From a virus, in the IMG/VR virus record IMGVR_UViG_3300017917_002795, positions 62,001 to 126,000 of that record: 64,000 nt of DNA, one strand, 5' to 3'. Position numbers and translations under genes: made by a program. Under the pieces are notes generated by a model. The model saw only the letters and a program-made list of their open reading frames with translations. It had not been told where the DNA came from and searched no databases. This document shows positions 8,488-62,434 of this stretch, piece after piece (within the stretch, counting starts at the first letter, position 1; every line of letters begins with the position of its first letter).

Positions 8488-9194
8488 AATCATTCTTACA
8501 ACAAATAGAAGAAGCATTTGAAGCAGTTGATAAAACTGATGATATCATTGATGATATTGCAAATCGCCATGATAATATCGAAGATGAATTAGAAGAAGTA
8601 TCTACATCTGGTGGTGCTGGTGCATATATGACACCAAATGCATTCTCTCCAGCTGATGATGATACTGTTGAAGTATTAGGATATAAACGAGTACGAGAAT
8701 CCGTTAACACGCCACCATCATATAAATTAGGACAATATCAAAGTCCAGAATCTGCAGAAGAAGAATGGAATGATAAATTTCCTTTTTCTACTAAAAAATG
8801 GTATAATTCGGATATGAAATATCCATCAGTTGATATGACAGAAACGCCTAGTAGAACACGTAAAGAAGATGTTCCTAAAATATCTTCACAGCGTGTTTTA
8901 GCAGATATAGTAAATGAAGCGTTGGATATAAAATATGAACAACTAGTTGAATCATATCGTTCATATAAAACTGCATCTGGTGATAAAAAGCCGTCTAAAA
9001 CTATAAAAGAAACCATTACAAACATTGCACGTCAACTCAAAGAAATTGAAGATTCAGTAAACCATGCATCTCGATTTAAAAATGAATCAGGCGTTACATC
9101 ATCTGCATATGGTCCTAGCACAACACGCGCATTAACCAAAATATCAGAAAGATTAATTAAAATATCAGAACGAGTAAGAACGTTAGGGGAGTAA
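8484..9194 (+). CDS. Hypothetical head-region protein
   Basis: The 236-residue protein has an acidic N-terminus (DDIIDDIANRHDNIEDELEE), a probably disordered middle, and a helical C-terminal half with a repeated KISERLIKISERVR pattern. It is translationally coupled to the gene before it and ends one base before the protease ATG. It could be a minor prohead core component; no family was recognised. Confidence 0.65.
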   Translation: MKSFLQQIEEAFEAVDKTDDIIDDIANRHDNIEDELEEVSTSGGAGAYMTPNAFSPADDDTVEVLGYKRVRESVNTPPSYKLGQYQSPESAEEEWNDKFPFSTKKWYNSDMKYPSVDMTETPSRTRKEDVPKISSQRVLADIVNEALDIKYEQLVESYRSYKTASGDKKPSKTIKETITNIARQLKEIEDSVNHASRFKNESGVTSSAYGPSTTRALTKISERLIKISERVRTLGE

Positions 9195-9195
9195 A

Positions 9196-9825
9196 ATGTC
9201 AAAACAACTATTAGTAGAATTCATGCCATTTCATCCGATTAGTTCATTAAATGAAACTAGCGGTGCTGCATTTGGCATTCCAGGAGGTTTTGTCGTACAA
9301 GGAGTTTTACAAAGAGCAGGTGCTAAAAATCAAAACGGTCGTGTATATCCTAAACCAATATTACATAGAGAATGTGTTCGATATCAAAAAGAATATATCG
9401 ATCAGCACCGAGCATTAGGAGAATTAGATCACCCAGAATCATCAGTAGTCAACTTAAACAATGTGTCACACAATGTTTTGAAAATATGGTGGGATGGTGA
9501 TGATTTAAAAGGTGCAGTTCAAATTCTAGATACTCCATCTGGAAATATTTTGAAATCATTGTTTAAGGCTGGCATCACATTAGGTATTTCTAGTCGCGGT
9601 TTAGGCTCTGTTAAAGAATTGCGAAATGAGGGAGTAGTTGAAGTTCAAGAAGATTTTGAATTAATATGTTGGGACTTCGTGTCTAATCCTTCGACTCATG
9701 GTGCTTTTATGCGGCCTACAAGGATGAATGAATCAACTGATAATAATATAGAACAAAATAAATACGCACGTGTAAATCAAATCATTACGTCGATTTTGTG
9801 TGAAGATGGTAAATGTAGGATATAA
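9196..9825 (+). CDS. gp21: Prohead core protease (T4 gp21-like)
   Basis: This serine protease degrades the scaffold and trims capsid proteins during head maturation. The herpesvirus-assemblin-like catalytic set is visible: His in GELDHPE (about residue 76), Ser in GISSRG (about 136) and an acidic WDFVSNPST (about 161). The 209 aa length matches T4 gp21. It lies directly upstream of the scaffold and capsid genes, as expected. Confidence 0.93.
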   Translation: MSKQLLVEFMPFHPISSLNETSGAAFGIPGGFVVQGVLQRAGAKNQNGRVYPKPILHRECVRYQKEYIDQHRALGELDHPESSVVNLNNVSHNVLKIWWDGDDLKGAVQILDTPSGNILKSLFKAGITLGISSRGLGSVKELRNEGVVEVQEDFELICWDFVSNPSTHGAFMRPTRMNESTDNNIEQNKYARVNQIITSILCEDGKCRI

Positions 9826-9827
9826 AA

Positions 9828-10232
9828 ATGGGAAAGAAACTAGAAACTTTAAAAAATTTATTATATGAAATGGATTCTAAAAAGAATGTGTTTCAAGAAG
9901 GTCCAGCTCCGTTAACATTAGAAGAAAAACGAGCTTTTTCAGAATCATTAAAAACATTTTCGCAGTTAGGCGAATCTGTGTATAGCAAAAGAAAATTAGA
10001 AGAAGCTGTAACTACCATTGAACGAATGGTTGAAACTGCACGTAGATTGGTTAATGAAGCATCTGACGATGTTGTAGAATCAACTGCGGCTGGTCGTCAT
10101 TTCAATTATATGGATAATGCTTTGAAAGAATTCAAAAAATCAGCCAATGAAATTTTGATTCATGAACGTCGTTGTTCACAGGCATATGAAGACATTGCAG
10201 AAGGCCTTAAAAAATATTATGATGTTGGATAA
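9828..10232 (+). CDS. Hypothetical helical protein
   Basis: This is a 134-residue, mostly alpha-helical, charged protein two bases after the protease gene. No motif was recognised. Its place between protease and scaffold suggests a prohead core or assembly role, but that is only positional. Confidence 0.65.
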   Translation: MGKKLETLKNLLYEMDSKKNVFQEGPAPLTLEEKRAFSESLKTFSQLGESVYSKRKLEEAVTTIERMVETARRLVNEASDDVVESTAAGRHFNYMDNALKEFKKSANEILIHERRCSQAYEDIAEGLKKYYDVG

Positions 10233-10274: not shown

Positions 10275-10784
10275 ATGATGAATACGCTTAAAAAATTATA
10301 TAGAGACTTTTTCGGTTTAACGGAACAAACAATTGTTAATAAAAAACATCCGGTAGTTCCTGGACTAGATCCTAAAGATACCGCTAATCTAGCAAACTAC
10401 AACAAAGAACTACAAAAAACGCAGGCTTTAATGAAAGGCATGACATCAGAAGGAGAAATTGAAGAAGCTAAACTAGATAACAGCATAACAGATTATCAAG
10501 GCGGCGTTGAATATGTATTACATGATCCAGCTGTCGCACAAGCAACGTCCGATTCAATTCGTCAATGGGCTGAGAAAAAAGGGTTTACTGTTGTTAAACA
10601 ACAAGTATCTAAATCAGGTCGTGTTGGATATTTTTATTTTAGATTGGGTCAAGATCCTGCTCGCGAATCACAAAAAATTCAAGGATATTTTGCACAACGT
10701 CCAGAATTAAAACATTTCCGATTCAATGTTAGATCTGCTAAGCCAAAAGCAAATTTACCAGCAAAAATAGTTAAGAAAATTTAA
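10275..10784 (+). CDS. Hypothetical protein upstream of bS21
   Basis: The 169-residue protein starts MMNTLKKLYRDFFGLTEQ. The second ATG at 10278 is an equally good start. The C-terminal half (from about residue 78) has an alternating pattern ending HFRFNVRSAKP that looks like a small alpha/beta domain. It is under its own promoter together with the downstream bS21 gene, ten bases away. No family was recognised. Confidence 0.65.
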   Translation: MMNTLKKLYRDFFGLTEQTIVNKKHPVVPGLDPKDTANLANYNKELQKTQALMKGMTSEGEIEEAKLDNSITDYQGGVEYVLHDPAVAQATSDSIRQWAEKKGFTVVKQQVSKSGRVGYFYFRLGQDPARESQKIQGYFAQRPELKHFRFNVRSAKPKANLPAKIVKKI

Positions 10785-10794
10785 ACACAAATAT

Positions 10795-11040
10795 ATGAGT
10801 AAAAAACAGAAACAACACAAAACAATCGTGCCAGGTAATTCAATGGCAGTAAAAGTTTTAGGATCATCTAAAGAAGATTTAGCATATGCTCTTAAAACAT
10901 GGAAACGCAAAATTAAATCATCAGAAGTTTTAGAAAAAGTTAAAGACAATAAAACTTATGAAAAACCTAGCGTTACTCGACGTGCACAAATGATATCAGC
11001 TCGTTATTTACAATATGTAAAAGATTTGCATAGAGATTAA
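10795..11040 (+). CDS. rpsU: Ribosomal protein bS21 homologue
   Basis: The 81-residue basic protein carries the bS21 pattern: a short strand (MAVKVLGSS), a helix with ALKTWKRKI, a linker, then the hallmark YEKPSVTRRAQ and a final helix ending YLQYVKDLHRD. A 15-residue N-terminal extension is unusual. bS21 sits on the 30S platform near the 16S anti-Shine-Dalgarno end, and other large phages are known to encode it. It could replace host bS21 on ribosomes to favour phage mRNAs. It is followed by a strong terminator, so its transcript is separate from the scaffold/capsid transcript. Confidence 0.85.
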   Translation: MSKKQKQHKTIVPGNSMAVKVLGSSKEDLAYALKTWKRKIKSSEVLEKVKDNKTYEKPSVTRRAQMISARYLQYVKDLHRD

Positions 11041-11069
11041 AATTTAAACAACATTACATTGCATTAACG

Positions 11070-11100
11070 GCCCTAGCTTGAAAAAGTTAGGGCTTTTTTA
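11070..11100 (+). terminator. Intrinsic terminator after bS21
   Basis: A 10-bp stem (GCCCTAGCTT with AAGTTAGGGC, one G-U pair) has a GAAA loop and six T. TACTGTT follows the T run. Confidence 0.85.
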
Positions 11101-11197: not shown

Positions 11198-11229
11198 ATT
11201 TCCAAAAAACAAATTTAAGGAGAACAAAC

Positions 11230-12234
11230 ATGGCAAAATCAGATTTGCTAAAAGAAGCAATCGCTGATGCTAAAGCTGTTAGAGAAACTGCATTAGCAAA
11301 CGCAAAAATTGCACTTCAAGAACAGTTTGCCCCTAGAATCCAATCAATGCTATCTGCTAAATTAGCTGAAGAATTAGAAGATGAAGAAGTAGCAGCAGAT
11401 TTGGAAGCAGGAGCAGAAGATATCGAAGCAGGTGCAGAAGAATTAGAAGCTGGCGCAGACGCTGGACAAGATGTAGGTGATTTATCAATCGACGCTGATG
11501 GTGACGGAGAATTTGATGAATTTGACATTATGTCTCAAGAGCCAATCGCTGGTGAAGAAGAAATGGGCGCAGAAGCTGGTATGGAAGGCGAAGAAGCTGC
11601 ACCAGACGCAGAGTACGAAGACAGTATGGAAGAAGATCTTAATCTAGAAGAAATTCTACGTGAATTGGAAATGCCTATGGATGACATGGATGCTGAAGCT
11701 GGAATGGAAGCTGAAGAGCCAGTTGCCGAAGGATATGGTCATGATGAAGAAGATGTAGTAGAAGAAAACATCGACGAGATCATTGAAGCTATTCTACGCG
11801 AAACTGAAGAAGTAGAAGATTCGTCAGATGCTTCAAAATTAGAAGAAGAAAATGCAGAATTGAAAGAAGAACTAGAAGAAGCTTATAGCACAGTTAAACA
11901 ACTTAAATCAGTTATCAACGAAGTAAACCTTCTTAATGCAAAACTTCTTTACACAAACAAATTGTTCCGTAACTTTGAATTGAATGAATCACAAAAAATG
12001 AAAGTTATCGAGAACTTTGATAGAGCAGCAAATACAAGAGAAGCAAAATTAGTATTCGCAACATTGGCTGAAAGTTTCAATAAACCTAAATTGACTCCAA
12101 AGCGTAAAATGGTTAAAGAATCAATTGCATCTAAACCTGTTGCTACTACAGCACCATCAAAAGAAACAACACAAATTCTTTCAGAAGGTTTTGAAATGGC
12201 AAACCGTTGGAAGAAATTGGCAGGATTAATTTAA
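11230..12234 (+). CDS. gp22: Prohead core scaffold protein (T4 gp22-like)
   Basis: This internal scaffold around which the capsid assembles is later digested by the protease. The 334-residue protein is strongly acidic, with Glu/Ala/Asp-rich repeats (about residues 45-190), then a coiled coil (EENAELKEELEEAYSTVKQ) and the conserved C-terminal segment LNAKLLYTNKLFRNF...MKVIENFDRA seen in gp22 relatives, ending RWKKLAGLI. A strong AAGGAG lies eight bases before the ATG, fitting high expression. The capsid gene follows 30 bases later. Confidence 0.9.
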   Translation: MAKSDLLKEAIADAKAVRETALANAKIALQEQFAPRIQSMLSAKLAEELEDEEVAADLEAGAEDIEAGAEELEAGADAGQDVGDLSIDADGDGEFDEFDIMSQEPIAGEEEMGAEAGMEGEEAAPDAEYEDSMEEDLNLEEILRELEMPMDDMDAEAGMEAEEPVAEGYGHDEEDVVEENIDEIIEAILRETEEVEDSSDASKLEEENAELKEELEEAYSTVKQLKSVINEVNLLNAKLLYTNKLFRNFELNESQKMKVIENFDRAANTREAKLVFATLAESFNKPKLTPKRKMVKESIASKPVATTAPSKETTQILSEGFEMANRWKKLAGLI

Positions 12235-12264
12235 TTTTTAACAAAAACAAAAAAAAGGATAAAG

Positions 12265-13929
12265 ATGAGTTTAAATTCATTATTACAAAGCCCGGATAAT
12301 TCTCAAAGAGCTGCAGCAGTAGCTACTATTAAGAAATGGGAAAAAACCGGTTTATTAGAAGGTCTTCGTAACGAGACTGAAAAAGCAGGTATGGCTCAAT
12401 TGCTTGAAAACCAAGCACGTCAATTAGTAAAAGAAGCTTCACAAACAGGTACCGCAGAAGGATCTGAAGAGTGGGCTGGTGTAGCACTTCCATTGGTACG
12501 TCGTATCTTTGCTGAATTTGCTGCTAAAGAATTCGTATCAGTTCAACCAATGAACTTGCCTTCAGGTCTAGTATTTTACCTAGATTTTAAATATGGTACA
12601 GGTGTACCAGGATTCACTGCAGATCAAGCAGATCCAGTTTCAGCAGCTGGTCATCCATTTGCATCTCCTGAGTCTGATGATTCATTGTTTGGTGTAACTA
12701 ATACATCTGTTGACCCAACTGGTGGTCTTTATGGTGCTGGTCGTTTTGGTTATTCAATCAACGAAGTTACTGCATCAGTAGCAGCAACAACTGCATCAGT
12801 TGATTCTGGTTCAGTGAATTTTGATTCAGCATATACAAATACAGCATTGTCTGGATATACAAAAGTTTTAGTTTCAACTGGTTCGTTACCTTCAGCAGAT
12901 TTAACTGCAGTTAGATCATTTGTATTAACTTCAGGTTCGGCTGGTACAATTGTAACTACAGCAATGAACATTCCTGCATTTACAAAACTTAATTTATCAT
13001 CAGGAAATGTTGAATTTATCGTGTCTAAATCAGCTGGTATGAATGGTGTATCTGGATATACAGTAGCATATAGCAAACAACCTATCTCTTACAACAGAGG
13101 TGATTTTGAAGATGCAAATCCATTCAAAGGTTCTGGCGCTAATCAAGGTATCAACAACGGTACAGATATCGCAATTCCAGAATTGAACTTGGAGCTTCAA
13201 TCAGAGCCAATCGTTGCTAAAACACGTAAGTTGAAAGCAGTTTGGACTCCTGAATTTGCTCAAGACCTTAACGCTTACCATTCAATTGATGCTGAAGCTG
13301 AATTGACTTCAATGCTTTCTGAGTATGTATCTATGGAAATCGATTTAGAGATTCTTGATATGTTGATTTCTGCAGCTCCAACAACTGAGTATTGGTCAGC
13401 TAAAAACAATAACATCTGGAATGGTTCTGGATTCACACAATCATCTGCAGTAGCTGGTGATGGTTTCTATAACACTCAAGGTGGATGGTTCCAAACATTG
13501 GGTACTAAACTTCAAAAAGTGTCTAACAAAATTCACCAAAAAACATTGCGTGGTGGTGCTAACTTCTTAGTAACTTCTCCTGCAGTTGCAACTATTCTTG
13601 AGTCTATCCCAGGATTTGCTGCTGACACTGATGGTACTAAATTAGAATTTGCTGCTGGTGTTCAAAAAATTGGTGCTATCAATAACAGATACACAGTTTA
13701 CAAAAACCCATACATGAAAGAGAACGTAATCCTTATGGGATTCAGAGGAGCACAATTCCTTGAAACAGGTGCTGTTTATTCTCCATACATTCCACTTATC
13801 ATGACTCCATTGATTTATGATCCAATCAACTTCACTCCACGTAAAGGTGTTATGACACGTTACGCGAAGAAAGTGGTTCGTCCAGAGTTCTACGGTAAAG
13901 TATATGTACATGGTTTAGAAACTCTTTAA
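12265..13929 (+). CDS. gp23: Major capsid protein (T4 gp23-like)
   Basis: This is the main HK97-fold shell protein. The segment FVSVQPMNLPSGLVFYLDF corresponds to the conserved GVQPMNSPTGQVFALR of T4 gp23. EYVSMEIDLEILDMLISAAP and the C-terminal YDPINFTPRKGVMTRYAKK are also characteristic. The 554 aa length includes an N-terminal propeptide; QLLE near residue 48 is a candidate protease cut site, inferred from the L-x-E rule of T4. Between about residues 130 and 270 a Ser/Thr/Val-rich insertion could be a surface domain. A hairpin terminator follows. Confidence 0.95.
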   Translation: MSLNSLLQSPDNSQRAAAVATIKKWEKTGLLEGLRNETEKAGMAQLLENQARQLVKEASQTGTAEGSEEWAGVALPLVRRIFAEFAAKEFVSVQPMNLPSGLVFYLDFKYGTGVPGFTADQADPVSAAGHPFASPESDDSLFGVTNTSVDPTGGLYGAGRFGYSINEVTASVAATTASVDSGSVNFDSAYTNTALSGYTKVLVSTGSLPSADLTAVRSFVLTSGSAGTIVTTAMNIPAFTKLNLSSGNVEFIVSKSAGMNGVSGYTVAYSKQPISYNRGDFEDANPFKGSGANQGINNGTDIAIPELNLELQSEPIVAKTRKLKAVWTPEFAQDLNAYHSIDAEAELTSMLSEYVSMEIDLEILDMLISAAPTTEYWSAKNNNIWNGSGFTQSSAVAGDGFYNTQGGWFQTLGTKLQKVSNKIHQKTLRGGANFLVTSPAVATILESIPGFAADTDGTKLEFAAGVQKIGAINNRYTVYKNPYMKENVILMGFRGAQFLETGAVYSPYIPLIMTPLIYDPINFTPRKGVMTRYAKKVVRPEFYGKVYVHGLETL

Positions 13930-21452: not shown

Positions 21453-23201
21453 ATGGCAACTTTTATAACATCCAAAGGGGTTGGGGAAACAATATCAATC
21501 ACTGTTGTAACCTCTACCGGATATTGGAAATATAACCATAACGGGACAGATTCAAGTGCTTTCGTAAATGGTGAAGACGGAGTGATAACTATATCAAACG
21601 CAAATGGTGAATTTACACTTATTTCATGTGATAGTGAAGGTAATGTAAGTGGGGATATTATTTATTTGGAATCACAAAATAACCAAATAACTTCATTTAA
21701 TGGAACAGGTTTAACATCATTAACTGAGTTGTATTTAGGTGGTAACCAATTAACATCATTTGATGGTACTGGTTTATCAGATTTAAACGTTTTGTATTTA
21801 ACCAATAACCAATTAACTGGATTTACGGGAACAGGTTTATCTTCTTTAACTCAGTTGTATTTATACAATAACCAATTAACCGGATTTACGGGAACAGGTT
21901 TAACATCATTAACTGAGTTGTATTTAGAAAATAACCAATTAACATCATTTGATGGAACAGGTTTATCTTCTTTAACTACATTGGGTTTATATAATAACCA
22001 ATTAACTTCATTTGACGGAACGGGTTTATCTTCTTTAACTACATTGGGTTTATATAATAACCAATTAACTTCATTTGACGGAACGGGTTTATCTGGATTA
22101 ATTAATTTAAATATAGAAAATAACCAATTAACTGGATTTACAGGAACTGGTTTATCTTCTTTAACTGAGTTGTATTTAGGTAATAACCCACTCACATCAT
22201 TCAATGGTGGAGATATGGGTCAAATCACAAGTTTAAATTTTCAAGGTAACTTGGGTATTTCAACACTAGAATCATTTGATGGTGGTAATATGACTGGTTT
22301 AACTGAATTGTATTTACACAATAACCAATTAACTTCATTTGATGGAACTGGTTTATCTTCTTTAACTCAGTTGGATTTAAACACCAACCAATTAACTTCA
22401 TTTGACGGAACAGGTTTATCTGGTTTAACTTCATTGGCTTTATATGGCAACCCACTCACATCATTCAATGGTGGTGACATGGGTCAAATCACCGAGTTAA
22501 ATTTTCCTGATAGTTGGAATATTACAACGCTACAATCATTTGATGGTGGTAATATGACTGGGTTAACTTCGTTATATTTATATAACAACCAATTAACTTC
22601 ATTTGATGGAACTGGTTTATCTGGATTAACTTCGTTATCTTTATATAACAACCAATTAACTTCATTTGATGGATTTATTTTTCCTGAAAGTTTAACTTAT
22701 TTAGAATTAAACAACAACCAATTAACTTCATTTGACGGAACTGGTTTATCTGGATTAACTTCGTTATCTTTAAACAGTAACCAATTAACTTCATTAGATG
22801 GATTTATTTTTCCTGAAAGTTTAACTTATTTAGAATTAAACAACAACCAATTAACTTCATTTGACGGAACTGGTTTATCTTCGTTAAATGGATTGTATTT
22901 AGCTAACAACCAATTAACATCAATTAATATTGCTGGTTGTGATATTCTTCGATATCTATACGTTAATGATAATCCATTAACACCCGTTATCAACAATTCA
23001 CTTCTAGCAAAACTTGCAGCAAATGAATTAGTAAATGATTGGAATTCTGGTGAATTCATCACAACAGGAGGAAGAACATCTGCTGGTACAACTGATTATG
23101 ATTATTTGATCGCAAATGGTTGGTCAATTGGAGGTGCTGATTTAGTTCCCGTTGTAACAGGTAAACTACGTGTTAAAGGTGTTGGACAGATTAATCCATA
23201 A
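21453..23201 (+). CDS. Leucine-rich-repeat protein, candidate adhesin
   Basis: About 20 leucine-rich repeats of 21 residues (consensus LTSFDGTGLSSLTTLGLYNNQ) cover residues about 75-510. A short N-terminal beta domain precedes them, and a C-terminal 70-residue domain ends GKLRVKGVGQINP. There is no signal peptide or membrane segment. LRR solenoids bind proteins or glycans, and in the middle of a fibre cluster the likely role is receptor binding. Two consecutive 63-bp units near 21971-22096 are identical, suggesting recent unit duplication. A bidirectional-looking hairpin follows. Confidence 0.8.
   Translation: MATFITSKGVGETISITVVTSTGYWKYNHNGTDSSAFVNGEDGVITISNANGEFTLISCDSEGNVSGDIIYLESQNNQITSFNGTGLTSLTELYLGGNQLTSFDGTGLSDLNVLYLTNNQLTGFTGTGLSSLTQLYLYNNQLTGFTGTGLTSLTELYLENNQLTSFDGTGLSSLTTLGLYNNQLTSFDGTGLSSLTTLGLYNNQLTSFDGTGLSGLINLNIENNQLTGFTGTGLSSLTELYLGNNPLTSFNGGDMGQITSLNFQGNLGISTLESFDGGNMTGLTELYLHNNQLTSFDGTGLSSLTQLDLNTNQLTSFDGTGLSGLTSLALYGNPLTSFNGGDMGQITELNFPDSWNITTLQSFDGGNMTGLTSLYLYNNQLTSFDGTGLSGLTSLSLYNNQLTSFDGFIFPESLTYLELNNNQLTSFDGTGLSGLTSLSLNSNQLTSLDGFIFPESLTYLELNNNQLTSFDGTGLSSLNGLYLANNQLTSINIAGCDILRYLYVNDNPLTPVINNSLLAKLAANELVNDWNSGEFITTGGRTSAGTTDYDYLIANGWSIGGADLVPVVTGKLRVKGVGQINP
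21971..22096 (+). repeat. Identical 63-bp LRR units
   Basis: Two adjacent copies are identical as read by eye (offset 63 bases), within a longer run of diverged LRR units. Confidence 0.7.
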
Positions 23202-56421: not shown

Positions 56422-57684
56422 ATGGAAATATCAAACAAAATTTTGAGTGAAATAACAGTATACATGAAGTATGCCAAATACATTCCAGAACTCAACCGCC
56501 GAGAAACTTGGGAAGAATTAGTTACAAGAAACAAGGAAATGCACATTAAAAAATATCCACAGTTACAAGATGAAATTGAAGCTGCATATCAGTTTGTGTA
56601 TGATAAAAAGATATTACCATCAATGCGTAGTTTGCAATTTGGCGGCAAACCAATTGAAATTTCTCCAAACCGTATTTACAATTGTGCATATCTTCCAATT
56701 GATGATTACAGAGCATTTGGTGAAGCAATGTTTTTGCTGTTAGGCGGTACTGGCGTAGGATATTCAGTGCAAGCTCATCATGTTGAGAAACTACCAGAAA
56801 TACGCAAACCTAATCCTAAAAAGACACGTAGATTCTTAATTGCAGATTCAATTGAAGGTTGGGCAGATGCGGTAAAAGCTGTTGTTAAATCTTATTTTGA
56901 AGGCGGATCCACATTTGTGTTTGATTTTTCTGATATTCGACCAAAAGGCGCTCGATTAGTTACATCGGGAGGAAAAGCACCAGGACCGCAGCCACTTAAA
57001 GAATGTTTAATTAAACTTCAAGGAATCTTAGATGCAAAAGACGATGGCGATAAACTTTCTCCAATTGAAGTGCATGATATGGTATGTCATGTTGCGGACG
57101 CAGTGTTGGCTGGTGGTATTCGTAGAGCAGCACTCATTAGCTTGTTTAGCGCTGATGATGAAGAAATGATTGCATGTAAATCAGGTAATTGGTGGGAAAC
57201 AAATCCACAAAGAGGCCGAGCAAACAATTCAGCAGTATTAATACGACACAAAGTTACCCGTGAATTCTTTATGGATTTATGGAAACGAGTAGAATTGTCA
57301 GGAGCTGGTGAACCAGGTATTTATCTATCCAATGACAAAGATTGGGGAACTAATCCATGTTGTTTTATCGGCGATACTAAGATACAAACTTCATCAGGTA
57401 CTTTAACTATTAAAGAAATCGTTGATAAAGTTAATGCTGGCGATTCATGTGAAGTTATTTCATTTAATGAACAAACTAAACAAATTGTGTTGAATAGTGT
57501 AACAGCAGGAATGTTAAGTAAAAAAGATGCAAATGTAGTTAAACTGACAGTGGAAGAAAATGGAATTCGATATTCTGTTACATGTACTCCTGATCATAAA
57601 TTCTATACTAATAACAGGGGTTGGGTAGAATGTAAAGATTTGTGTTCAGATGATGACATTGTAATATATAATTCAATTTCATAA
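56422..57684 (+). CDS. nrdJ: Ribonucleotide reductase class II, N-terminal half with N-intein
   Basis: Residues 1-313 are the N-part of a B12-dependent ribonucleoside-triphosphate reductase (PSMRSLQFGG, RIYNCAYLP with Cys88, LLLGGTGVGYSVQ). The extein ends at the active-site GTNPC. Cys314 begins a 107-residue N-intein: block A CFIGDTKIQ and block B CTPDHKF. The stop at 57682 then ends the frame. The other half of intein and enzyme is at 58552. By comparison with Lactobacillus RTPR, C313 and the Cys 11 residues further on correspond to C408 and C419. The enzyme should be inactive until protein splicing. Confidence 0.9.
   Translation: MEISNKILSEITVYMKYAKYIPELNRRETWEELVTRNKEMHIKKYPQLQDEIEAAYQFVYDKKILPSMRSLQFGGKPIEISPNRIYNCAYLPIDDYRAFGEAMFLLLGGTGVGYSVQAHHVEKLPEIRKPNPKKTRRFLIADSIEGWADAVKAVVKSYFEGGSTFVFDFSDIRPKGARLVTSGGKAPGPQPLKECLIKLQGILDAKDDGDKLSPIEVHDMVCHVADAVLAGGIRRAALISLFSADDEEMIACKSGNWWETNPQRGRANNSAVLIRHKVTREFFMDLWKRVELSGAGEPGIYLSNDKDWGTNPCCFIGDTKIQTSSGTLTIKEIVDKVNAGDSCEVISFNEQTKQIVLNSVTAGMLSKKDANVVKLTVEENGIRYSVTCTPDHKFYTNNRGWVECKDLCSDDDIVIYNSIS
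57361..57681 (+). other. N-terminal split-intein fragment
   Basis: This 107-residue fragment begins at Cys1 (TGT at 57361) right after NPC. Its block B TxxH (TPDH) is intact. The C-terminal end (DDDIVIYNSIS) stops just where a contiguous intein would continue into its endonuclease domain. Confidence 0.9.
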
Positions 57685-57692
57685 AAAATATA

Positions 57693-57763
57693 AATTTGCC
57701 CTTATTTTAATACAATGTCATATATTTATATTAAATGATATCGCATTAAAATGAGGGCAAATA
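57693..57763 (+). repeat. Inverted repeat around a late-type promoter, before endonuclease gene
   Basis: Arms 57693-57713 and 57743-57763 pair over about 18 of 21 positions (core TTTGCCCTTATTTTAAT). The 29-base loop holds the late-type motif. The right arm ends one base before ATG 57765, so folding would hide the translation start. Confidence 0.8.
57723..57732 (+). promoter_or_regulatory. Late-type promoter motif in the hairpin loop
   Basis: TATTTATATT lies between the two hairpin arms. A start site a few bases downstream gives an RNA that lacks the left arm. Confidence 0.55.
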
Positions 57764-57764
57764 T

Positions 57765-58559
57765 ATGAAAAATGGGGGAAAGGTAAAATTAGGATCTGCG
57801 AAAAATAGAGGGTATATCGGATACCACACTACATGGGATAATAAAAAAGTTTTTTTACGTAGTAAAGCGGAATTTATTTTTGCGAAATCATTAGATATAG
57901 AAAAAATACCATACATGTTAGAATGCGTAACATATCGAATAGATAATAAATATTATAAACCGGATTTTTTTATATTTGATGATAATTATAGTACGATTAA
58001 AAAAATCATAGAAATAAAAGGATTAGACGATAAGAAAACAGCATTGATGTATTTGGATAAATATAAACCATATTTTAATAGCATAGGGATTGAATATGAT
58101 GTAGTATGGAAATATCAAGCATTGATTACTAAATATCAATTGCATGAAGAAATTGAAAAATGGATTACTACGTCTATTCAAAAATATGATTTTATTTCAG
58201 ATACATCTGGCAAAAATAATCCAATGTATGGCCGAAAACAAACAGAAGAAACGAAAAAACGAATACAAACTAAGGCAATTGAACGACAAACTGATGAATA
58301 CCGTAAAAAGAATTCTGAAGCACAGAAAGCATTTTGGACGACCGAAAGGGGCTTACAACGAAAACTAGAAATTTCTTTGCAACGAACACAAGATGCTATA
58401 CTAAAAAACCCAATTGTTGATAGACAGTGTAAACATTGTAATAATATATTTGAAACTAAATTAAAAACTAAAAAACAATTTTGTTCAGGTTTATGTAATA
58501 GGACATGGTCTTATAAAAATATACCTGGGTATGGAAAATGGAGAAAAAAACATGGCTAA
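57765..58559 (+). CDS. Homing endonuclease between split-intein halves (Vsr-like, NUMOD3)
   Basis: The N-terminal half looks like a Vsr/EDxHD-type PD-(D/E)XK nuclease: RSKAEFIFAKSLD, YYKPDFFIFD and KIIEIKG supply the E, D and E-x-K positions. A NUMOD3 DNA-binding motif follows (SGKNNPMYGRKQTEETKKRI), then a C-terminal Cys4 zinc finger (CKHCNNIF...QFCSGLC). The 264-residue gene occupies the place of the endonuclease domain of a contiguous intein but is separately translated. Its stop overlaps the next ATG by eight bases. It should cut intein-less nrdJ alleles; the specificity is inferred. Confidence 0.85.
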   Translation: MKNGGKVKLGSAKNRGYIGYHTTWDNKKVFLRSKAEFIFAKSLDIEKIPYMLECVTYRIDNKYYKPDFFIFDDNYSTIKKIIEIKGLDDKKTALMYLDKYKPYFNSIGIEYDVVWKYQALITKYQLHEEIEKWITTSIQKYDFISDTSGKNNPMYGRKQTEETKKRIQTKAIERQTDEYRKKNSEAQKAFWTTERGLQRKLEISLQRTQDAILKNPIVDRQCKHCNNIFETKLKTKKQFCSGLCNRTWSYKNIPGYGKWRKKHG

Positions 58560-58659
58560 ATTAATATCAATTGAAATACTAGATAAACGAGAAGATGTAT
58601 ATGACATCGAAGTTGAGGATAATCATAATTTTTTTGCGAATGGAATATTAGCACATAAT
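58552..58659 (+). other. C-terminal split-intein fragment
   Basis: These 36 residues start MAKLISIEILDK and carry block F (VYDIEVEDNHNFFANG) and block G (ILAHN, followed by extein Cys). Asn36 and Cys37 are the splice residues. Confidence 0.9.
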
Positions 58660-59577
58660 TGTGAAATTGCACTTCGCCCTTTCCAATTCTGTAATCTTTG
58701 TGAAGTAAATGCATCGGATATTGAATCACAAGAAGACCTTGAAACCCGCGTTCGAGTAGCTGCATTTATCGGAACACTTCAAGCTGGATACACTGATTTT
58801 CATTATCTACGTCCGGTTTGGAAACGCACAACTGAAAAAGATGCGCTTATTGGCGTATCAATGACAGGTATTGGTTCTGGAACGGTATTAGGATATGATA
58901 TGAAAGCGGCTGCACGAGCAGTTAAAGCAGAAAATGAACGTGTTGCAAACGTCATTGGTATTAATCGATCAGCTCGTACAACAACTGTTAAGCCCGCAGG
59001 AACAACATCATTAGCATTAGGAACATCATCTGGAATTCATGCATGGCACAATGATTACTATATCCGTCGAATCCGTGTTGGAAAGAATGAAGCAATTTAT
59101 TCTTATTTAGCAGCAAATCACCCAGAACTTGTTGAAGATGAATATTTCCGTCCACATGACACGGCAGTTATCTCAATTCCACAAAAAGCTCCAGAAGGTT
59201 CCATACTAAGAACAGAATCACCATTTGCATTGCTAGATCGCATCAAAAAAGTGCATTTAGAATGGGTTAAACCAGGACATCGAAGCGGAAACAATACTCA
59301 TAATGTATCTGCAACCGTATCACTTAAAGCAGATGAATGGGAATTGGCAGGAGAATGGATGTGGGAGAATCGTCAACATTATAATGGATTATCAGTTTTA
59401 CCATTCGATGGAGGCACATATACCCAAGCTCCTTTCGAGGATATTACTAAAGAACAATATGAAACAATGATGAAATCACTTCATAACATTGATTTGAGTC
59501 AAGTAATTGAATTAGATGACAATACAGACCTGTCAGGAGAATTGGCTTGTGCTGGTGGAGCGTGTGAGATAAAGTAA
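58552..59577 (+). CDS. nrdJ: Ribonucleotide reductase class II, C-terminal half with C-intein
   Basis: After the 36-residue C-intein, the extein begins CEIALRPFQFCNLCEV, which rejoins the conserved NPC-C-E motif. The remaining 305 residues include TTTVKPAGTTSLALGTSS and the C-terminal redox pair CAGGAC. Start is at ATG 58552 (GGAG upstream); an in-frame ATG at 58531 lies inside the endonuclease frame. The spliced enzyme would be 618 aa, similar to other phage RTPRs. It supplies dNTPs from host NTPs, needing host B12. Confidence 0.9.
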   Translation: MAKLISIEILDKREDVYDIEVEDNHNFFANGILAHNCEIALRPFQFCNLCEVNASDIESQEDLETRVRVAAFIGTLQAGYTDFHYLRPVWKRTTEKDALIGVSMTGIGSGTVLGYDMKAAARAVKAENERVANVIGINRSARTTTVKPAGTTSLALGTSSGIHAWHNDYYIRRIRVGKNEAIYSYLAANHPELVEDEYFRPHDTAVISIPQKAPEGSILRTESPFALLDRIKKVHLEWVKPGHRSGNNTHNVSATVSLKADEWELAGEWMWENRQHYNGLSVLPFDGGTYTQAPFEDITKEQYETMMKSLHNIDLSQVIELDDNTDLSGELACAGGACEIK

Positions 59578-61792: not shown

Positions 61793-62434
61793 ATGGTAAC
61801 ATGTAAATTATGTAAAAAAGATTTTCATCGAATTTCGAATACACATTTAAAGCGCCATGGAATTACATGTAATGAATATATGCAACAATTTCCAGATGCC
61901 GAAATGGTTGATGCCGAATTGAAAAAACAAATATCATTATCATCATATGGAAAAACATATGAACAGAGATATGGCGTAGAAACTGCAACTAAATTACGAG
62001 AACAGCGTAAAGTTGATGCAAAAAAACAATTTTCTGATATTGAACAACGTAGAATTCGATTTAATTCAAATTGGAAAGGATATGGAGATTTATCAGGAGA
62101 TCATTGGCGTCGTATTCAGAATGGAGCTTTAGGACGAAATTTAGAACTAAATATTACAATTGAAGATGCGTGGAATGTTTACTTGAAACAAAATGGTAAA
62201 TGTGCAATATCAGGAATTGATATTACATTAAGAGGCCAAAAAATAGGAATGTCTTCAAAATCTGTACATGAAAAAACTACAGCATCGCTGGATAGAATTG
62301 ACAGTAGTAAAGGCTATACTATTGATAATATACAGTGGATACATAAAGATTTGAATCAAATGAAAAGTGATCGTACTATGGAGACATTTTTATATTGGGT
62401 AAAAACTATATACGAAAATAAATTTGGAATTTAA
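61793..62434 (+). CDS. HNH homing endonuclease
   Basis: An N-terminal zinc-finger-like CKLCKKDF...HLKRHGITCNEYMQQFP resembles the MucR/ROS type. The C-terminal half has the phage HNH pattern: GKCAISGIDITLRG, TTASLDRIDSSKGYTIDNIQ and WIHKDLNQMKSD. It lies between folE and queD genes, typical of a free-standing homing gene that inserts into conserved gene neighbourhoods. Activity is inferred. Confidence 0.85.
   Translation: MVTCKLCKKDFHRISNTHLKRHGITCNEYMQQFPDAEMVDAELKKQISLSSYGKTYEQRYGVETATKLREQRKVDAKKQFSDIEQRRIRFNSNWKGYGDLSGDHWRRIQNGALGRNLELNITIEDAWNVYLKQNGKCAISGIDITLRGQKIGMSSKSVHEKTTASLDRIDSSKGYTIDNIQWIHKDLNQMKSDRTMETFLYWVKTIYENKFGI

Follow-up and report, generated by a model that had tools for sequence, protein, structure and literature searches.

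The 64,000-nucleotide window analysed here (positions 62,001 to 126,000 of the virus record IMGVR_UViG_3300017917_002795) carries, within a phage head module, a gene for ribosomal protein bS21 with an N-terminal extension, a form of the protein whose distribution among related phages is compared below with the use of Shine-Dalgarno (SD) sequences. The preliminary description had reported an 81-residue bS21 open reading frame (ORF), and its sequence is as described: Pfam PF01165 covers residues 25-71 and exceeds its cut-off of 27 bits, and the NCBIfam model TIGR00030 'S21p' exceeds its cut-off of 28.95 bits (scores and coordinates are collected in Table 1). By these profile matches the ORF is a bS21 homologue, and it is the single bS21 copy in the whole 140,594-base record. 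The nearest solved sequence is bS21 of Flavobacterium johnsoniae (7JIL, E = 1.6e-5), in which Tyr54 is reported to stack on A1534, to steer the 16S tail away and to help hide the anti-SD sequence (PMC9976891). The window protein has a tyrosine at the equivalent position, which is aromatic (Y/F) in 32/33 bS21 proteins of the clade to which the window belongs (the window clade) and in 40/41 of a second clade; this residue and the closeness to F. johnsoniae bS21 bear out the Bacteroidetes-type character that had been ascribed to the protein. Bacteroidia-type bS21 proteins, which sequester the anti-SD, hold the 16S 3' tail in concert with bS18 and bS6. An AlphaFold2 (AF2) model built on an 18-row alignment predicts helices at residues 26-42, 45-53 and 58-78 (predicted local distance difference test score, pLDDT, 79.5), which would be the three expected for bS21, at a predicted template modelling score (pTM) of 0.44 and without Foldseek support, as the Foldseek search with this model returned no bS21 chain among its matches. 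A tblastn search of the window bS21 against the INPHARED phage collection gave no match.

The N-terminal extension had been put at 15 residues; its existence is confirmed, and its length is corrected to about 17 (residues 1-17). In relatives, the bS21 body is preceded by the consensus M[SN]KKQKQHxxIVPGN or a close variant, found in every relative inspected. That the extension is a retrieval artefact was ruled out, because a scan with the core domain alone also returns extended relatives. In a set of 82 sequences, all distinct and without gaps, the extension has an entropy of 0.55 bits and the body one of 1.04, and the synonymous difference (pS) is equal in the two parts (0.53), with a nonsynonymous difference (pN) 2.4 times lower in the extension. 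No other part of the protein is as constrained as the extension, whose protein-level constraint exceeds that of the ribosomal body. Because of this low entropy, and low pN at equal pS, the start at codon 1 is very likely real. The F. johnsoniae and E. coli-type bS21 proteins used for comparison show no counterpart of the extension; instead of the short N-terminus beginning at the core (about 64 aa) of Bacteroidia-type bS21, the window protein has these 17 residues.

The gene lies in a T4-like myovirus head module, comprising in order terminase (TerL), Gp20 portal, S77 protease, g134, g169, bS21, scaffold and Gp23 capsid. The one-strand order protease-g134-g169-bS21-scaffold-major capsid protein (MCP) is kept among 143 related viral loci, so the earlier placement of bS21 just ahead of the scaffold and capsid genes is right and conserved, and the link that it drew to the late structural genes holds. 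The g169 gene is present in all window-clade loci and nowhere outside the clade, its stop falling mostly 9-21 nt before the bS21 start; as this amounts to 33/118 bS21-bearing loci, g169 was rejected as a universal bS21 partner. Of 80 distinct bS21-scaffold gaps, 71% contain a terminator-like hairpin, versus 5% of shuffles; since such a hairpin also follows bS21 in the window, the separate transcript proposed for bS21, apart from scaffold and capsid, is plausible. The conserved place between prohead protease and scaffold, together with an extension unmatched in the cellular bS21 proteins examined, could also speak for a role outside translation initiation, such as head assembly or virion packaging, the latter raised as a possibility by Chen et al. 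2022 (PMC9723584). Such a role seems very unlikely to us: the bS21 body retains the family signature and is under purifying selection, and the bS21 of Pelagibacter phage HTVC008M enters E. coli ribosomes, with an in vitro activity of about 5% of wild type (PMC6375957). Elsewhere in the structural region, the window encodes a 582-aa leucine-rich-repeat protein (21453-23201).

Table 1. Features of the bS21 locus, numbered from the first base of the window
Feature	Position	Strand	Evidence
Prohead protease (Peptidase_S77)	9196..9825	+	PF03420 110 bits; SD AGGGGAG at 9185-9191
g134, conserved, between protease and g169/bS21	9828..10232	+	Locus comparison
g169, function-unassigned gene directly upstream of bS21	10275..10784	+	Clade-confined; no Pfam/PHROG match
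SD-less bS21 leader	10771..10794	+	0/66 distinct clade leaders with dG <= -5; 0/33 in tree set
Phage bS21 gene, 81 aa	10795..11040	+	PF01165 38.5 bits; TIGR00030 31.3 bits; nearest PDB sequence 7JIL
N-terminal extension, codons 1-17 (MSKKQKQHKTIVPGNSM)	10795..10845	+	Near-invariant in clade; pN 0.106, against 0.249 for the core, with pS the same
Codon for Tyr71, equivalent of F. johnsoniae Tyr54	11005..11007	+	Alignment to 7JIL
Rho-independent terminator-like hairpin 3' of bS21	11069..11094	+	Fold z -3.8; conserved feature
SD motif AAGGAG before scaffold gene	11217..11222	+	dG -8.2; 49/49 distinct clade leaders with SD
Scaffold protein gene	11230..12234	+	Position; homology to pre-capsid gene of immuto and Mel-JY01
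SD motif AAGGA before major capsid gene	12255..12259	+	56/56 distinct clade leaders with SD
Major capsid protein (MCP), Gp23 family	12265..13929	+	PF07068 250 bits

The leaders of these genes differ sharply in SD content. With an SD called at dG <= -5, distinct window-clade leaders carry one before the protease (46/46), scaffold and capsid genes in every case, and before bS21, the portal (0/32) and g284 (0/55) in none. The scaffold, MCP and protease leaders combine complementarity to the anti-SD with fixed spacing and conservation; the distance from GG to ATG is 6-12 nt with a mode of 8-10, and AGGAG is enriched 12.5-fold, as in canonical SD sequences. The pattern recurs in three clades with N-extended bS21, in which an SD precedes bS21 in 0/33, 1/40 and 0/17 loci by position count, and in 0/33, 0/41 and 0/17 with motif-chosen starts, and in which the SD-bearing fraction is 0.87-1.00 for scaffold and 0.97-1.00 for MCP. 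Pooled by hand from rounded fractions over five N-extended genomes, SDs precede 46/88 late structural genes versus 135/572 unassigned genes (p = 1e-7). The Mel-type clade shows no such excess in late structural over unassigned genes, and there the bS21 gene itself has an SD. Outside the structural genes, SD use in the window clade is near background, and the SD-less genes have A at -3/-6/-12/-13 and are depleted of AUG around their starts, a pattern shared with Flavobacterium phage immuto and not with the Mel-type phages.

Two further leader features were observed. The bS21 leaders of N-extended clades (for example at loci L026, L159 and L103) have an A/T-rich start context, often, in two clades, with AAGTTAT or TAGTTAT abutting the ATG. 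Separately, the motif TATTTATA occurs upstream of clade genes 26 times against 2.4 expected, mostly 20-35 nt before starts (window and genome G017); it is the reverse complement of the T4 late promoter box TATAAATA and is a possible late promoter.

To compare loci across the family, T4-like loci were fetched by capsid protein and near-copies were removed, leaving 202 non-redundant loci that were placed on an MCP tree. An SD before the major capsid gene was found in 116/118 loci with bS21 (between prohead protease and scaffold) versus 3/84 loci lacking it, the four classes being bS21 with SD (116), bS21 alone (2), SD alone (3) and neither (81); six of the SD calls were corrected by hand on inspection, for weak AGGAT leaders (L502, L505, L506) or misplaced starts (L329-L331). 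Searches of whole records found no bS21 in 16 records from the bS21-lacking class, including the complete genome of immuto, and exactly one in each of 8 from the bS21-bearing class. Where bS21 is N-extended, the capsid gene has an SD in 99/99 cases, which suggests, at the level of sequence comparison, that the N-extended form is coupled to SD use on capsid genes. The two bS21-bearing loci with no SD (L153, L216) have bS21 without the extension, and where bS21 is of the host-like Bacteroidia kind and unextended, the locus is SD-less. The broader proposition that any phage bS21 accompanies SD use was ruled out, as these unextended Bacteroidia-like forms occupy SD-less loci. On the capsid tree, bS21-lacking groups are scattered among bS21-bearing ones, with 8 changes on the best tree.

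SD use in these phages is locus-wide, reaching 0.53 of the other ORFs in loci with both bS21 and SD versus 0.07 in loci with neither, as would be expected if it were set by the host: N-extended phages would infect SD-using hosts, bS21-lacking phages would infect SD-blind Bacteroidia, and bS21 would simply supply or tune SD-using ribosomes, with no switch. The same explanation fits the Mel-type clade (annotated host Microcystis), in which SDs are widespread and extend to bS21, and the known Flavobacterium phage, which falls in the bS21-lacking group. It does not account for several observations: in three N-extended clades bS21 lacks an SD among neighbours rich in them, and in two of these clades the Tyr54 position is aromatic; the SD-less genes have a Bacteroidia-like start context; and SD use in the window clade stays near background once the structural genes are set aside. 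We regard host-driven SD use as a serious rival account, though one less probable than not.

The host of the window phage bears directly on this question. Three features point to Bacteroidia: the residue at position 54, the resemblance to F. johnsoniae bS21 and the start-context pattern of the SD-less genes. SD use points the opposite way unless the ribosome is altered. Among cultured phages, immuto and Microcystis phage Mel-JY01 come closest in their capsid and terminase proteins, with about 55% identity. The Bacteroidetes promoter motif (TTG-N-TAnnTTTG) gave no signal in the window genome and none in immuto either, and is thus uninformative on the host. At L152 and L157 (Microcystis phage Mel-JY01), upstream TTG-N16-20-TAnnTTTG was counted 7 times against 0.36 expected, which is odd for an annotated cyanobacterial host. 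A 747-aa window protein had no tblastn match in INPHARED, a 1115-aa window protein had short weak matches to mixed hosts, a Pfam scan for host-tracing genes found none that was informative, and a genome-collection scan for the host bS21 returned a single distant Desulfobacterales match. Among the other genes of the window, a class-II ribonucleotide reductase fragment (56422-59577) has intein splicing blocks flanking an ORF with a NUMOD3 motif (57765-58559), which is probably an intein/homing-endonuclease insertion.

Our preferred model is that the SD-less phage bS21 replaces host bS21 and shifts ribosomes to SD-bearing late genes. The phage protein would enter the host 30S subunit, displacing host bS21; the conserved extension and the changes in the body would make the anti-SD tail of the 16S rRNA usable again; and SD-bearing late phage mRNAs (protease, scaffold, capsid and others) would then be preferentially initiated. 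The SD-less phage bS21 mRNA would itself be translated by unmodified host ribosomes and would escape the feedback through the SD that keeps host rpsU in check in Bacteroidia, and synthesis of the phage protein would fall as ribosomes convert. In F. johnsoniae, strong-SD mRNAs are initiated more when bS21 is lost or mutated (PMC9976891). The parts of the model that we infer are that the phage protein is built into ribosomes, that it takes the place of host bS21, that the anti-SD tail is freed and that the host is of Bacteroidia type. Incorporation is likely, by homology and by analogy with HTVC008M bS21 (PMC6375957), and a role in late-mRNA selection is rather more probable than its absence; full release of the anti-SD would be a tentative assignment, and the model as a whole falls somewhat short of an even chance. 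A bolder form, in which phage bS21 turns SD-blind Bacteroidia ribosomes SD-using late in infection, SDs mark the capsid genes, and lineages losing bS21 also lost their SDs, is possible but questionable. The earlier suggestion that, late in infection, the phage copy could alter which starts host ribosomes select thus gains indirect comparative support, from the constant pairing of N-extended bS21 with capsid-gene SDs and from the SD-less bS21 gene; what it says of the ribosomes themselves is conjectural.

Several points weigh against this model. The co-occurrence test is not significant by itself, because the strongly supported branches hold only 3 independent pairs (the best tree gives 8), and the 'N-extended' class was defined after the data had been seen. 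One group (L417, L428, L433, L442, L444) has a capsid-gene SD with no bS21 detected in the locus, and the whole records of L428 and L444 yielded none. The hosts may use SD normally, in which case no switch is needed. In the window clade, the portal and g284 are likewise SD-less, and translational coupling to g169, given the position of its stop, could alternatively cause the SD-less bS21 leader. The main objections to anti-SD release concern Tyr54 and SD strength: the retained tyrosine would be expected to keep the anti-SD hidden, and F. johnsoniae needed very strong extended SDs, below about -13 kcal/mol, whereas the phage SDs are modest, at about -6 to -9 kcal/mol. Plain replacement, the view of Chen et al. 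2022, would instead fit three observations: Tyr54 is retained, the C-terminal region is like that of F. johnsoniae bS21, and other phages with bS21 are reported to express it late (PMC9723584). In this view phage bS21 mimics Bacteroidetes bS21, the anti-SD stays hidden, and phage mRNAs are favoured through some other feature that the N-terminal region reads. This is unlikely in our judgement, as it does not explain the conserved capsid-gene SDs of the same phages, and phage loci with host-like unextended bS21 have no SDs.

Phage bS21 is already known (Mizuno et al. 2019, PMC6375957; Al-Shayeb et al. 2020, PMC7162821; Chen et al. 2022, PMC9723584), as are its late expression, Tyr54 retention and N-terminal extensions, and the idea that it replaces host bS21 late in infection was published by Chen et al. 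2022. The freshwater Bacteroidetes jumbo phages of that study resemble the window in having bS21 among TerL/portal/protease/MCP genes, an aromatic residue at Tyr54 and a Bacteroidetes-like sequence. They differ in that bS21 lies on the opposite strand in genomes of 293-331 kb, whereas in the window it shares the strand of the structural genes and the record measures 140.6 kb; the window thus falls outside their bS21-phage clades, which are marked by opposite-strand bS21 and a genome of about 300 kb. In the text consulted we found neither an analysis of SDs in phage leaders nor a conserved extension at the N-terminus, whereas the window has both the extension and SD-bearing capsid genes. For the rpS21 of huge phages, Al-Shayeb et al. 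2020 noted N-terminal extensions and proposed that they aid ribosome binding or phage mRNA initiation; the MSKKQKQHxxIVPGN motif, its constraint and the co-occurrence with SD were not found there, and other earlier work saw no clear relation of phage bS21 to ribosome-binding sites (PMC7550191). HTVC008M is likewise a myovirus with bS21, though of alphaproteobacterial type. Mel-JY01 (PP395634) has an annotated RpsU at the same locus, between protease/g134 and scaffold, but without the extension, with a non-aromatic residue 54 and with an SD on the bS21 gene itself. Immuto lacks bS21 both at this locus and in the rest of its genome and is SD-less at its head-module genes; over the stretches read, about 118 kb out of 160 kb, its SD content does not exceed that of shuffles. 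F. johnsoniae shares Tyr54, and there bS21 governs anti-SD access and SD-dependent initiation through rpsU autoregulation (McNutt et al. 2023, PMC9976891); the host rpsU has an extended SD and is nearly the sole SD gene, whereas the N-extended phages show the inverse, with SD-less bS21 and SD-bearing scaffold and capsid genes.

What appears to be new is this inverted wiring and the coupling of N-extended bS21 to SD use, neither of which was found in the literature searched (preprints lie outside it). One bS21 form that co-occurs with SD use, wired opposite to the host rpsU loop and accompanied by natural controls that lack bS21 or its extension, makes a direct and testable prediction; if it is true, the virus would reprogram start-site choice by swapping a single ribosomal protein.
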